Positions 14,763-46,488 of a stretch of DNA of 56,028 nucleotides are shown one piece after another. The stretch is from Candidatus Poribacteria bacterium. GTDB lineage: Bacteria; Poribacteria; WGA-4E; WGA-3G. A program made the position numbers and the translations under genes. The notes below the pieces were generated by a model. It was not told the DNA's origin. It worked only from the letters and a program-made list of their open reading frames with translations, and did no database searches. Location of the stretch: the NCBI GenBank assembly GCA_022825665.1, contig JAJDWI010000130.1:1-56028 (forward strand), read 5' to 3'. Each line of letters starts with the position of its first letter. The first letter of the stretch is position 1.

Positions 14763-14806
14763 TAATTTATATGAATTGTAATTTATTCACCACTCACATT
14801 AATTTT

Positions 14807-16543
14807 ATGTCTTTAGTCACATTAACAAACATTACAAAACGATATGACCCCGATGTAATCCTTGATGATATATCTGTTGCAATTGCCCCCGGTGATAGAA
14901 TTGGGTTAATTGGTCGTAACGGATGTGGAAAAACTACGTTATTAAAAGTGATAAGTTGTATCCTCACCGATATTAAAGGGAATGTAGTATTAGCTAAGGA
15001 CAAACGGATCGGATACCTAAGCCAAGAACCTGACTTAGAACGCGATTGTACGTTACGTCAGGAAATGCTAAAGGTATTTCATGAACAGTCTGCACTTGAA
15101 GACAAAATGCTCATGCTTGCTGAGGAGATGGAAACCGATGAAACTCCTCAGTTATTACGGGAATATTCACGAATACAGGAACAACATGACAGACTCGGTG
15201 GATACGATTATGAACACAAGATCAATCGAGTACTCGGTGGGTTAGGCTTTAGCGAACAGGATTTCAACTTACCTGTCAACGTTCTCAGTGGAGGTCAAAA
15301 GAGTCGAGCAACTTTAGCAAAACTACTCTTAGAAGAACCTGATTTATTACTCTTTGATGAACCGACCAACCATCTTGACATTAACGGGATAGAGTGGTTA
15401 GAGAATTATCTGAATACCGAATTTAAAGGTGGTGTTCTTGTCGTATCTCATGATAGGTATTTCTTAGATAAAGTCGTACATAAAATATGGGAACTCGAAT
15501 CAAGTAAGATAAACACCTATCGTGGGAACTATTCTAAGTACTTAGAGACCAAAAACATTGAACGTATCGTTGACCAGCGCGCATTCAAAATGCAGCAAGC
15601 ATTCGTCGCACAGGAAAAGGAGTTCATTGAACGGAATATAGCAGGACAGCGTACTCGTGAGGCACAAGGAAGACGAAAAAAACTGGAACGAATGGAGACA
15701 GTTGAAAAACCGAAACGAGATGCACCGACTGTTAAACTCAACTTCACACAGGAGACACGTGGTGGAAATGACATCTTACGATGTCATAACGTTAGCAAAC
15801 AGTTTGACGAAAAGGTCTTATTTACAGATCTGACTTTTGAGGTGGACCGCGGAGATGTCATTGGAATACTGGGAGCAAATGGCACTGGTAAGACCACGCT
15901 CTTCAGAATGATATTGGGACAGGAACAACCAACAAAAGGTGAACTTTGGGTGGGTCCAACGCTCAAATTCGGGTATTACACACAGGAATTAGAAGGGCTC
16001 AATCAAGATAACGAAGTCCTTGAGGAGGTGTGGGAACTTTGTCCACAGAAGACACAACAAGAAATTCGAAGTTACTTAGCAAAGTTTCTTTTTACTGGTG
16101 ATGATGTCTTCAAACAAATTGGAAACTTAAGCGGTGGAGAACAGAGTCGTGTTCAACTGGCGAAGTTATTATTAGAAAACGCTAATGTCCTATTGCTTGA
16201 TGAACCAACGAACCATCTTGACATTCCAGCACGTGAAGCACTTGAGAAAGCACTTGAACAGTATCCTGCAACGATATTTGTTATTTCTCATGACAGATTC
16301 CTATTGAATAGTTTAGCAACCAAAATGTTGATTTTTGAAGTCACAAAAGAAGGGACAAATACCCACTTTTTTAATGGGACTTATGCAGAATATGAAGCGG
16401 AACAGCAGAGACAAGTTATTGAGGAAATGCAGAGTCAACAGCAACAGGAAGTTGTTCAAACTAAGAAAACACAAAAACCGACTAAAACAAAATCTAAACG
16501 AAAACGGAAAATGAAGGCACAACGTCTTGTCGGTAGTAATTAA
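14807..16543 (+). CDS. ABC-F family ATPase
   Basis: A soluble protein with two ATP-binding cassettes and no membrane domain, as in the ABC-F translation factors that act on the ribosome. Cassette 1 shows GRNGCGKTT, LSGGQKSR and LLLFDEPTNHLD; cassette 2 shows GANGTGKTT, LSGGEQSR and LLLDEPTNHLD. The linker between them is basic and helical (QGRRKKLERME). The C-terminus is a lysine/arginine-rich tail after a Gln-rich stretch, suited to nucleic-acid contact as in Uup-like proteins. The start at 14807 (MSLVTLTNITKRY) matches where the cassette begins; an ATG at 14771 would add 12 residues. Confidence 0.9.
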   Translation: MSLVTLTNITKRYDPDVILDDISVAIAPGDRIGLIGRNGCGKTTLLKVISCILTDIKGNVVLAKDKRIGYLSQEPDLERDCTLRQEMLKVFHEQSALEDKMLMLAEEMETDETPQLLREYSRIQEQHDRLGGYDYEHKINRVLGGLGFSEQDFNLPVNVLSGGQKSRATLAKLLLEEPDLLLFDEPTNHLDINGIEWLENYLNTEFKGGVLVVSHDRYFLDKVVHKIWELESSKINTYRGNYSKYLETKNIERIVDQRAFKMQQAFVAQEKEFIERNIAGQRTREAQGRRKKLERMETVEKPKRDAPTVKLNFTQETRGGNDILRCHNVSKQFDEKVLFTDLTFEVDRGDVIGILGANGTGKTTLFRMILGQEQPTKGELWVGPTLKFGYYTQELEGLNQDNEVLEEVWELCPQKTQQEIRSYLAKFLFTGDDVFKQIGNLSGGEQSRVQLAKLLLENANVLLLDEPTNHLDIPAREALEKALEQYPATIFVISHDRFLLNSLATKMLIFEVTKEGTNTHFFNGTYAEYEAEQQRQVIEEMQSQQQQEVVQTKKTQKPTKTKSKRKRKMKAQRLVGSN

Positions 16544-16587: not shown

Positions 16588-16616
16588 TTGACAACCTCCA
16601 ATTATTAATATATAAT
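16588..16616 (+). promoter_or_regulatory. Consensus sigma-70 promoter of the MarR-ferritin gene
   Basis: TTGACA (16588-16593), exactly 17 bases, then TATAAT (16611-16616). Both hexamers are perfect. Such a strong core would need repression, which fits the operator that follows it. Confidence 0.85.
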
Positions 16617-16620
16617 TTAT

Positions 16621-16632
16621 GTCGTATACGAC
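16621..16632 (+). promoter_or_regulatory. Palindromic operator candidate over the transcription start
   Basis: GTCGTATACGAC is a perfect 12-base palindrome starting four bases after the -10 box, so it covers the expected start of transcription. It precedes a MarR-family gene, and such regulators commonly bind palindromes in their own promoters. Autorepression is inferred. Confidence 0.65.
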
Positions 16633-16664
16633 GGAATATATCTCTCATATAGGACGTATTTGTA

Positions 16665-17543
16665 ATGTCAAAAAACCGAGAATTTAACCAGGAAATTGAT
16701 ATCGTGATGCGCGTGATGCGACATGCGCAGGCGGCAGTCAAATCCAGGTTTATTCAGGATGTCGTCCCCAATCGTTTGACAATTGTTCAGTTCAATGCAT
16801 TGCAGCATCTTCATTGGTACGGTCGTGATAACGGCATGTATGTCAATGAATTAGGTGAGCATTTAGGTCTTGCACATAATACTGTCTCAGGTTTGGTCAG
16901 TCGACTTGAGAAACACGGTTGGGTTGTCCGTCGGAAATGTGAAGAGGATCGGAGGCGTGCACGCATTCAACTTACTCCACAATCCGTTGCATTGTTTAAG
17001 GAACGAATTGAATATGCAGTCGATTTTTGGGATCATACTTTCGGTCAACTTTCTCCTGTTGAACAAGAGAATCTGATTGAAAGTTTGAACAAGTTGAAAC
17101 AGGTTATGGCAAAGCCGGTTTGGCCAAGTTATGCTCAGTTACATCCACGTGATGACGATAGTTTACGTGAAAAGTTTGAAACAGATCTTGACGAACTTGC
17201 ACAAGCAAAACTGAAACTCGTTGGGATTCGTCTTATACTGGCACAAATTGCCGAAAACCGTAATGAACATGAACTTGCCGCATACCTTAACCAAGCTGCC
17301 TCAGAGGAAATCCGACATACAAATCAGATATTCTCATTACTCGGACATGGAGAACATTTTGAAAATCTACTCTCATCCCTTATAGATGAAGACAAAGTAG
17401 TCTACGAAGAATTGTTAGCATTACTTGATAATGCACCATGTGAAGATGAGGATGAGGAATTCGTCTTACTTCGACAAATGCTTGAAGATAGTGACAGATA
17501 TAAACGTTGGTTTCGTAATGTCAAAAAACAAAAGAATCGGTGA
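16665..17543 (+). CDS. MarR-family regulator fused to a ferritin-like C-terminal domain
   Basis: Residues 1-150 are a typical MarR winged-helix dimer: the recognition region YVNELGEHLGLAHNTVSGLVSRLEKHGWV (about 59-87) and the wing DRRRARIQLT (95-104). Residues 165-290 are a second, all-helical part with a four-helix pattern. Its second helix holds E214, E215 and H218 (EEIRHTNQIFSLLG), which resembles the E-x-x-H metal motif of rubrerythrin/ferritin proteins. A glutamate-rich helix follows, but the last helix lacks an obvious ExxH, so the metal site is only partly visible. The inferred role is a transcription factor sensing iron, oxygen or peroxide through its own diiron-like domain. AGGA at 16651 precedes the ATG. 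The gene lies under a consensus promoter with a palindromic operator and is followed by an ECF sigma gene. Confidence 0.75.
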   Translation: MSKNREFNQEIDIVMRVMRHAQAAVKSRFIQDVVPNRLTIVQFNALQHLHWYGRDNGMYVNELGEHLGLAHNTVSGLVSRLEKHGWVVRRKCEEDRRRARIQLTPQSVALFKERIEYAVDFWDHTFGQLSPVEQENLIESLNKLKQVMAKPVWPSYAQLHPRDDDSLREKFETDLDELAQAKLKLVGIRLILAQIAENRNEHELAAYLNQAASEEIRHTNQIFSLLGHGEHFENLLSSLIDEDKVVYEELLALLDNAPCEDEDEEFVLLRQMLEDSDRYKRWFRNVKKQKNR

Positions 17544-17605: not shown

Positions 17606-18223
17606 ATGCAGTCCCAAAGCCACGAAAGTATTCCTCCTGCTTGTAACTATGATGATGCACAATTGATTGAACAGTTTCAGCAGGGTGACACAGAAGTGTT
17701 TGATACTCTATTTACACGTTATCAGAAACGTACCTACCGGTTAGTTCAACGTTTTGTTCCTAACCATGAAGATGCCCTTGATATAACTCAAGACGCATTC
17801 ATACGGGCATACCAAGGTTTGGGTGATTTCAAGGGGCAGTGCCAGTTTTATAGTTGGCTATACCGCATCACATTCAACCTATGTATTGATTTCCTAAGAA
17901 AAAAATCGCGGTCAGAAGTGATGGTTTATGAATCTGAAGAAGGTGATGAGTTACCTATGGCAAATTTCCCTGATTTACGTTCAGATTCTCCCGCCAAAGC
18001 TGCTGTAAATAAGGAACTTAGAGTTCAGATTCGAAAGGCGATACGTCAATTACCACCGAAGCAACGACAAATCTTCATCCTACGACATTGGGATGGATTA
18101 TCACTTAAAGATATCGCTGCTGTGGTCGGTAGATCTGATGGAACGGTCAAGGCACATCTATTCCATGCACATCGCAATCTACGCAAACATCTACAACCTT
18201 ATTTGAAGGAGTCGGATGTGTAG
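17606..18223 (+). CDS. ECF-type RNA polymerase sigma factor
   Basis: A group 4 sigma factor of about 205 residues. Region 2 is visible as LFTRYQKRTYRLVQRFVPNHEDALDITQDAFIRAY followed by SWLYRITFNLCIDFLRKK; region 4 as LPPKQRQIFILRHWDGLSLKDIAAVVGRSDGTVKAHLFHA. The ATG at 17606 has AGAGGAG (17596-17602) at ideal spacing; a GTG at 17540 overlapping the previous stop is in frame but lacks one. No anti-sigma gene follows, since the next gene is convergent ftsY. It is probably cotranscribed with the MarR-ferritin gene and so controlled by the same signal. Confidence 0.9.
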   Translation: MQSQSHESIPPACNYDDAQLIEQFQQGDTEVFDTLFTRYQKRTYRLVQRFVPNHEDALDITQDAFIRAYQGLGDFKGQCQFYSWLYRITFNLCIDFLRKKSRSEVMVYESEEGDELPMANFPDLRSDSPAKAAVNKELRVQIRKAIRQLPPKQRQIFILRHWDGLSLKDIAAVVGRSDGTVKAHLFHAHRNLRKHLQPYLKESDV

Positions 18224-44503: not shown

Positions 44504-46171
44504 TTACCTTTCAAGAGTTACATTACGGAAATATTTCCAATTCAATGGATTAAGTGTGAGATTTTTTACCTGTTTGTTAACGACAAGAATCTGTTTCGCA
44601 TGTGCCATTGGTACCCATGGAATATCTTTATGGAATATCTGCTGTGCTTCTTTGTAGAGAGATGTCCGCTTAGTTTTATCGGTAGTTGCTCTTGCCTTCT
44701 CTAAAATATCTTGCATTGCATCACTACGATAAAATGCGATATTCCCTGCCGGTTTCTCAGCAGAAGTTTTACTTAATAGAAAGTAGAAAAAGTTGTCGGG
44801 ATCACCAAGATCTGCACTCCATCCTAACATAGCAATATCGTGTTCACCATATTTTGTCTTTTCAAGATATGTGCCCCAATCATAGGTCACAATTTTCGTT
44901 TTTATCCCAATATTGCGTAGTTCAGATTGAAGTACTTCTGCAAGTGCCCTACCATCAGGGATGTAAGGACGTGGAACAGGTAATGCCCAGAGAGTTGTTT
45001 CAAATCCATTAGGGTATCCGGCTTCTGTGAGTAGTTGTTTCGCCAATTTAGGATTGTATTCGTAATCCTCAATTGTATCATCATAACTCCAAAGAGTTGG
45101 GGGAATAGGATTCTTTGCTGGAATTCCGAGACCTTGATATAGATGTTCAATAATAGCAGATTTATTTATTGCATGATTAATTGCAAGTCTGACTTTGTGG
45201 TTATCGAAAGGAGATTTCTCCATATTCATTGCTAAATAACCGATACTCATACCGGGTTGTGATAAGAGTTCTATATTCTCATCCTTCCGAATCTGTTCCA
45301 AGTCATCGGGGTTTGGAAATTCCATTGCATGTAGACTTCCTTGTTGTAGTTCAATCAATCGTACTGAGTTGTCAGGAATTGAACGGAAGATTACTCTGTC
45401 TAATTTTGGACTTCCTTTCCAATAGTTCTTGTTTGCCTCAAGGACGATTTTATCTTTCCTATCCCAACGCACAAACTTGAATGCACCAGTACCAACAGGA
45501 TTGCTGGAATACTTGTCTCCATACTCTTTCACTGCTGTTGGACTAACAATAGAGAAAGGAGTGATTGCAATCGTGTAGATAAATGGAGCATAAGCAGTTT
45601 TGAGTTTGATTTGAACAGTAAATTCGTCTTTAGCAGTTATAGTATCTACAATGTCTGCTAATCCAGTGGCAACCCAATAAACATAAGAACCACCAACATC
45701 ATGGAACGGATGTGATTTTACATGCTGTCGGTTAAGTGAAAATAGCACTGCTTCCGCATTGAATGGAGTTCCATCGTGGAATGACACACCTTTTCTAAGG
45801 TAAAATGTCCAGGTTAAACCATCGGCAGAACTTTCCCAATTTGTCGCAAGTCCCGGTTCAATTTCTGTACTACCATCTTTGTAATGAACAAGCGTATCAT
45901 AAATGTTGTCGCAAACCTTGAAGGATTCACCATCTTCTTCAAGGGCAGGATCTAACCCCACTGAATCGCCACCTCTACCGAAGATGAATGTTCCACCCGT
46001 TGAATGTGAATCGGCGGCAACATGCAATACAGGCAAAGTTAACAGTAATACTATTATACTACAGGTAGCGAGGAATGTTGATATTATAGGAAGGTGATGT
46101 ACAATGACTAATTTTCTTAACTTATAAAAACAATTCGTATTGACAATATTCTCTATCATACAGGACTCCAA
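44504..46171 (-). CDS. Peptide-type ABC solute-binding protein (paralogue of the next gene, no dockerin)
   Basis: 555 residues. A long N-terminal region reaches a hydrophobic segment (FLATCSIIVLLLTLPVLHVAA), then the binding domain starts directly: FGRGGDSVGLDPALEEDGESFKVCDNIYDTLVHY, HDGTPFNAEAVLFSL, NPVGTGAFKFVRWDRKD and RSDAMQDILEKARATTDKTKR. It is clearly related along its length to the downstream protein but lacks the Asp-rich module. The true start may be later than 46171 since about 25 residues precede the signal core. The pair looks like a tandem duplication after which one copy gained or lost the dockerin. Confidence 0.85.
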   Translation of the reverse strand: MESCMIENIVNTNCFYKLRKLVIVHHLPIISTFLATCSIIVLLLTLPVLHVAADSHSTGGTFIFGRGGDSVGLDPALEEDGESFKVCDNIYDTLVHYKDGSTEIEPGLATNWESSADGLTWTFYLRKGVSFHDGTPFNAEAVLFSLNRQHVKSHPFHDVGGSYVYWVATGLADIVDTITAKDEFTVQIKLKTAYAPFIYTIAITPFSIVSPTAVKEYGDKYSSNPVGTGAFKFVRWDRKDKIVLEANKNYWKGSPKLDRVIFRSIPDNSVRLIELQQGSLHAMEFPNPDDLEQIRKDENIELLSQPGMSIGYLAMNMEKSPFDNHKVRLAINHAINKSAIIEHLYQGLGIPAKNPIPPTLWSYDDTIEDYEYNPKLAKQLLTEAGYPNGFETTLWALPVPRPYIPDGRALAEVLQSELRNIGIKTKIVTYDWGTYLEKTKYGEHDIAMLGWSADLGDPDNFFYFLLSKTSAEKPAGNIAFYRSDAMQDILEKARATTDKTKRTSLYKEAQQIFHKDIPWVPMAHAKQILVVNKQVKNLTLNPLNWKYFRNVTLER

Positions 46172-46488
46172 TGCAAAATAATATAGATGATTATATATTT
46201 AATTTTGTGAAATGTCAAGATAATCATATTCATATCAAGTCATACATCTTTGCAGATTGAAATATAAAATATTATCTACCCAACCAGCGTATAGATCTCA
46301 CAGTAATGGACATACAGCAATAATTGCAGCTATTCATTATGTAAACAATCCGTTATATGTGATGATTATGGCAAATGTGTATCCATTCAATAAGTGTTAA
46401 CGTTTCATCTATCATACGTTTCACGTAATTCAGTAAGTATTGGTAAGATTCTGTCGGTAGTAATTCACCGATTATCTTTAGGTGTAGA
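46172..46488. other. Divergent intergenic region, 317 bases
   Basis: AT-rich DNA between the solute-binding protein and the HEAT-TPR gene. I see no gene, tRNA or strong hairpin. AGGTG at 46480 is the ribosome site of the right-hand gene. Promoters for both directions must lie here but none is close to consensus. Confidence 0.5.

Follow-up and report, generated by a model that had tools for sequence, protein, structure and literature searches.

Among MarR-type regulators, two described proteins stand closest to the locus analysed here, namely VvPecS, which is reported to bind two pseudo-palindromes (PMC6391409), and Streptomyces SCO3205, for which two operators are described (PMC3737563). One-component repressors have also been placed beside ECF sigma factors: one review proposes transcriptional control by TetR for ECF203, and names PadR repressors at ECF265 among the proteins associated with ECFs that lack anti-sigma factors (PMC8999054). 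The present locus combines a MarR-type gene, a palindrome over the expected start point of its promoter and an adjacent gene for an ECF sigma factor.

The DNA analysed, contig C156, is a stretch of 56,028 nucleotides (hereafter the window) from a genome of 4.53 Mb. This genome belongs to Candidatus Poribacteria, an uncultured, sponge-associated phylum. The features discussed below are as follows:

14771-16543, + strand (the same strand as marR): ABC-F gene, the upstream neighbour
16588-16593, + strand: -35 hexamer TTGACA, a sequence match conserved in family f1
16611-16616, + strand: -10 hexamer TATAAT, after a 17-nt spacer, a sequence match conserved in f1
16621-16632, no strand: O1, the putative primary operator, a perfect palindrome GTCGTATACGAC with core TCGTATACGA, over the expected start and conserved upstream of orthologues
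16637-16660, no strand: O2, an imperfect inverted repeat with a strong right half ATAGGACGTATT, recognised by column conservation and symmetry
16665-17543, + strand: gene for a MarR-type repressor of 292 aa (Pfam MarR, E 9.8e-11; MarR_2, 8.7e-11)
about residues 38-113 of MarR: winged helix (Pfam)
about residues 151-292 of MarR: predicted four-helix, ferritin-like domain, from PF02915 matches of distant homologues and low-confidence predicted secondary structure
17606-18223, + strand: gene for an ECF sigma factor of 205 aa (Sigma70_r2, 1.1e-17; Sigma70_r4_2, 1.5e-17; NCBIfam sigma70-ECF, 6.3e-34)
downstream of the sigma gene, opposite strand: ftsY

An Rfam scan of the window returned one tRNA and nothing else. 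The ABC-F protein encoded before marR shares 84-85% and 65-66% identity with its counterparts in the two closest genomes and mostly 41-49% across the genus, and may have changed fast or been replaced by another ABC-F; across the genus MarR is 80-85% and the sigma factor 87-93% identical.

The promoter agrees with the TTGACA-17-TATAAT consensus at 12 of 12 positions (16588-16616), just as the earlier note had read it. When the start point is placed by assuming that the -10 hexamer ends at -7, transcription is expected to begin at ~16622-16624, within GTCGTATACGAC, and the palindrome itself ends 32 bp ahead of the MarR-type gene, which starts at 16665, so that both the perfect palindrome over the expected start and the position of the promoter just ahead of a MarR gene hold as that note described them. 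Genome-wide there are 52 exact TTGACA-17-TATAAT promoters (25 + 27 strand matches) against 1 in a backwards control; the exact consensus upstream of marR is not unique in the genome, yet such sites are far above chance. A second exact copy in the window (46190-46218, - strand) lies just upstream of an ORF (44504-46171, - strand) that by eye resembles a solute-binding protein. The GTCGTATACGAC palindrome has no further exact copy in the window or in the 4.53-Mb genome and occurs within one mismatch at 7 genome places, fewer than the control's 16. Perfect 12-bp palindromes number 14 among the 56,017 positions of the window, where 13.7 are expected (1 in 4096), and the palindrome alone is therefore not significant. 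Because palindromes occur at this chance number and exact promoters are found 52 times in the genome, the observation by itself proves little.

The case for O1 comes from its relatives. At E <= 0.001, 45 of the 59 relatives have a MarR homologue, and at E <= 1e-20 such a homologue is present in 63 of 84 phylum genomes; the protein of the closest relative is 98% identical to that of the window. The earlier note had named absence of the palindrome from orthologous promoters as the observation that would speak against its reading; the core TCGTATACGA, allowing at most one mismatch and at most 200 bp upstream, was found before 51 of 57 distinct MarR-homologue starts and in only 6 of 1140 dinucleotide shuffles, a conservation beyond chance that makes O1 convincing (these analyses do not include L001, which repeats the window locus, or L073, which has no upstream region, and each set of identical regions entered the count as one). 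The other six regions carry the core with at least two mismatches: four with two (one in f1, three in f4) and two, both in f6, with three. Across the 46 distinct f1 upstream regions the -10 element is always TATAAT and the spacer always 17, and the -35 element is TTGACA in 45 and TTGACT in one. The distance from the -10 element to the palindrome centre is 12 nt in 27 of these regions, 10 in 15, 9 in 3 and 14 in one; this variation implies that the palindrome is not merely dragged along by the promoter. O1 is kept although its flanks change among the relatives (alignment A3 holds 25 sequences chosen out of 55), and its five inner steps are symmetric in 46, 38, 42, 45 and 45 of the 46 f1 regions. 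The TCGTA half-sites may resemble the published PecS consensus of Dickeya; the string was absent from the matches listed in an open-licence literature search.

Beyond f1, family f4, with a MarR protein that is ~60% identical, has the core at one mismatch in 5 of 8 regions and at two in 3 of 8 (the automatic -35/-10 assignment for f4 being unreliable in some rows). The genome G051 (locus L085), which belongs to another family and whose MarR is 37% identical, carries, 8 nt after TATAAT, AATATTTCGTATACGAAATATT, which is perfectly palindromic over 22 bp and contains the common core. No TCGTATACGA site was found upstream of the two f6 homologues, L086 and L087 (33-37% identical), where the best match has three mismatches; these two are counted among the 57 starts and, having no site, are excluded from the 55-row spacing and column tables. 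The leader in genus g2 (L025-L037, L051-L072) is long, with 116-146 nt between the O1 centre and the start codon; in many members its last ~40 bp contain a hairpin-like GCAAGTTT...ACTTGC stretch directly ahead of the start codon, for which translational control is possible.

The centre of O2 lies 22 bp, or two helical turns, downstream of that of O1; its sequence is ATATCTCTCATATAGGACGTAT in the window and ATATATCCGATATAGGATATAT in several g2 genomes. Spacing between the two elements stays near 22 bp in most f1 rows while the distance from the -10 element to O1 changes, and the O1/O2 pair therefore moves as a unit. O2 was not seen in G051. From its position and sequence, O2 is probably a second, weaker MarR site. 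One can also suppose that O1 is the MarR operator and that O2 works as an RNA hairpin in the 5'-UTR, controlling mRNA stability or translation, instead of as a protein site: its arms pair well in 27 g2 regions if G-U pairs are allowed, and the transcripts of L055 and L078 outfold most shuffles (z -1.84 and -2.49). The O2 transcript of the window, in contrast, folds no better than shuffles (z +0.79), and the right half is nonetheless conserved; the 22-bp spacing matches two helical turns, and in several f4 sequences O2 looks like O1 (TCGT-TAT-ACGA in L079). Taken with these points, an RNA role for O2 is rather unlikely, if still a serious competitor to O2 as a second MarR site.

The protein encoded next to these elements is a MarR regulator by its N-terminal half, scoring 41.8 bits against PF01047 (cut-off 24.6) and 42.3 bits against PF12802 (cut-off 27), and its family profile matches solved MarR chains, down to E 1.6e-17. 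Pfam gave no match for the C-terminal half (140 residues) of the window protein on its own. The f6 homologues, which align over nearly the full length, match PF02915 Rubrerythrin (E 5.6e-9 for L086 and 5.3e-9 for L087), and L086 also matches sulerythrin chains (best E 2.9e-5); both contain the helix-A Glu and the Glu-x-x-His motifs. Aligned with L086, L087 and sulerythrin, the window protein keeps Glu215 and His218 and has Lys182 in place of the helix-A Glu, and Ser276 and Tyr279 in place of the last Glu and His of Glu-x-x-His; all 37 close homologues share Lys182. In rubrerythrins the residues at the positions of Lys182, Ser276 and Tyr279 are di-iron ligands. A complete Glu/His ligand set of the rubrerythrin type is thus absent from the window protein, and with these three residues at ligand positions a standard di-iron centre is unlikely. 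The C-terminal half would then descend from a rubrerythrin-like domain that has lost the expected di-iron ligands. A structure prediction from the 37 close homologues gave the C-terminal helices at low confidence (mean pLDDT 51.8), too low to weigh other sets of ligands, and only its secondary structure was used. The f6 proteins (L086 and L087, in G054 and G050), with an apparently fuller Glu/His ligand set, possibly represent an ancestral, metal-sensing form.

These residues bear on the idea, implied by the assay that the earlier note proposed, that the repressor responds to iron or peroxide. Sensing through a working di-iron centre in the ferritin-like domain would fit the rubrerythrin and sulerythrin matches of the distant homologues and the retention of Glu215 and His218; set against it are the invariant Lys182 (37 aligned proteins) at the helix-A position and Ser276 and Tyr279 in place of the last Glu and His. 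No standard di-iron site is to be expected here, the iron/peroxide proposal is correspondingly weakened, and we regard it as improbable.

The second gene of the pair, which the finding in the earlier note had not mentioned, encodes an ECF sigma factor, with sigma regions 2 and 4 only (PF04542 and PF08281 above cut-off; TIGR02937 at 117 bits, cut-off 42.9). Its start is placed at ATG 17606, with AGGAG just upstream and the support of orthologue alignments; the mechanical ORF opens at GTG 17540. The gap between marR and the sigma gene is 62 bp in the window; the G051 ORFs have a 4-bp overlap instead. By coordinates, the sigma gene directly follows marR in 60 of the 61 f1, f4 and f7 genomes that have MarR, the exception being G068, where the contig ends inside the MarR gene. 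Counted over distinct loci (L008-L037 and L075-L087), it directly follows in 41 of 43; the two without it are the f6 loci L086 and L087, where no sigma gene was found within the stretch examined. O1 and the sigma neighbour hence co-occur, both being missing beside the f6 homologues. In each of these genomes the second-best sigma match is a paralogue that clearly differs, at 42-50% identity in most cases and at most 57% (G047). This difference, together with adjacency in 60 of 61 genomes, is strong evidence from comparative sequence that marR and the sigma gene would form a functional pair. No anti-sigma gene adjoins the sigma gene in the window, where the downstream neighbour is ftsY on the other strand. 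With the sigma-factor gene coming next, O1 probably controls a wider response.

The earlier note had offered the palindrome as a specific query for the rest of the genome, an expectation that the scans did not bear out. Across 18 genomes of the genus the RTCGTATACGAY pattern has 39 occurrences, of which 17 are the marR promoter; the one genome lacking the promoter site, G010 (73% complete), has no MarR match. Among the other 22 copies, 20 lie inside ORFs (often reading Ile-Val-Tyr-Asp) and two are intergenic, at L106 in G006 and at L116 in the genome of the window. The latter (L116:2001-2012, or C165:28120-28131), a GTCGTATACGAT copy 71 bp ahead of a 350-aa ORF, is the sole intergenic extra copy found in the window genome. 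In the near-identical genome G014 the exact copies are the marR site and one coding match only, so that the L116 copy, having no counterpart there, is unsupported by conservation. With a profile of O1 and O2 together, the marR promoter reached 48-56 bits in all but one of the 18 genus genomes, and the best other place 17.0 bits, apart from reverse-strand matches at the marR site itself (up to 19 bits). In six further genomes the marR promoter ranked first in five, and the operator of G051 was missed. Profile scoring covered the best 150 first-look candidates per genome, so weak sites could have been missed. No convincing second target promoter emerged from the 12-mer scan or from the profile within these 150 candidates per genome, and for this reason MarR seems to be a one-promoter repressor. 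It seems to serve its own operon alone, with the sigma factor as the route for any wider effect. Single-site use, the promoter, O1, O2, their conservation and the sigma adjacency are all direct observations.

The same searches bear on the possibility that the palindrome is a true operator belonging to another regulator, with MarR acting elsewhere. A conserved column pattern does not by itself identify the protein that binds it. Against this, promoter copies within the genus are essentially confined to the marR-sigma pair, the site tracks the MarR gene across families, and the f6 genomes, which have a diverged MarR homologue and no sigma neighbour within the stretch examined, lack the site. Local autoregulation is moreover usual among MarR proteins (PMC6391409; PMC3737563), and we consider a foreign regulator quite unlikely. 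The chance rate of perfect 12-bp palindromes in the window (14) and the commonness of exact consensus promoters (52) might suggest that GTCGTATACGAC arose by accident in a strong, AT-rich promoter and has no binding partner. This is very hard to maintain, since the core is conserved in 51 of 57 orthologous upstream regions, compared with 6 of 1140 shuffles, whatever its spacing to the -10 element, and appears again in another family, next to a MarR of 37% identity.

We therefore favour, with a probability of roughly 0.77, the reading that O1 is the operator of the adjacent MarR protein, which would repress the consensus promoter of a two-gene marR and ECF sigma transcript. An operator that lies over the start and is kept in orthologues is the pattern expected of negative autoregulation, and autorepression by the neighbouring MarR, the proposal of the earlier note, is still the best reading of a palindrome that is present in orthologous promoters. 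We infer from this arrangement the binding, the repression, the co-transcription of marR and the sigma gene, the signal and the sigma targets. A MarR dimer would sit on O1, covering the start of a consensus housekeeping (sigma-70) promoter and blocking it, and a second dimer would probably occupy O2, two turns of the helix further down and on the same face of the DNA. The blocked promoter would keep the two-gene transcript, and with it both repressor and ECF sigma factor, low. Some signal would release MarR, whereupon the strong promoter would fire; the ECF sigma factor, with no adjacent anti-sigma factor to be freed from, could then build up and turn on its own regulon, and fresh MarR would reset the switch.

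The present system appears to share with PecS and SCO3205 a winged-helix MarR protein, a palindromic site in its own upstream region and two neighbouring sites. The pecS and SCO3205 genes are divergent from a regulated gene, whereas the partner in the present case runs in the same direction as marR and codes for a sigma factor; the present protein differs further in its 292-aa length with an extra predicted helical domain and in the single target promoter detected. As with the ECF203/TetR and ECF265/PadR pairs, an ECF sigma gene adjoins the gene of a one-component repressor; unlike them, the repressor is a MarR protein with a predicted ferritin-like C-terminal domain, and the sigma factor is without ECF group assignment. 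The C-terminal domains of L086 and L087 match the rubrerythrin/sulerythrin domain (PF02915), and the window protein has Lys182, Ser276 and Tyr279 instead. Within the open-licence literature searched, no MarR protein with a ferritin-like domain was found together with an ECF sigma factor under one operator, the terms 'MarR', 'rubrerythrin domain' and 'fused' did not co-occur, and a search for TCGTATACGA with MarR strings gave only an unrelated miRNA/exosome study. MarR autoregulation through palindromes and paired operators is already well known. Tentatively, and at somewhat below even odds, we propose that a MarR protein fused to a rubrerythrin-derived domain stripped of its standard iron ligands acts as a one-site repressor, taking the role of an anti-sigma factor in gating an ECF sigma factor. 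The old metal fold would now sense something else, and two phased operators on a maximal promoter would make the switch across Poribacteria sharp and all-or-none. The apparent loss of iron ligands turns attention to the cue that such a predicted ferritin-like domain might detect today. For Poribacteria the locus provides a concrete, testable candidate switch whose putative operator, repressor and sigma factor are each defined and shared by several families, and to the repressors adjoining ECF sigma genes that PMC8999054 describes (TetR and PadR) it adds a MarR protein with a predicted ferritin-like domain.
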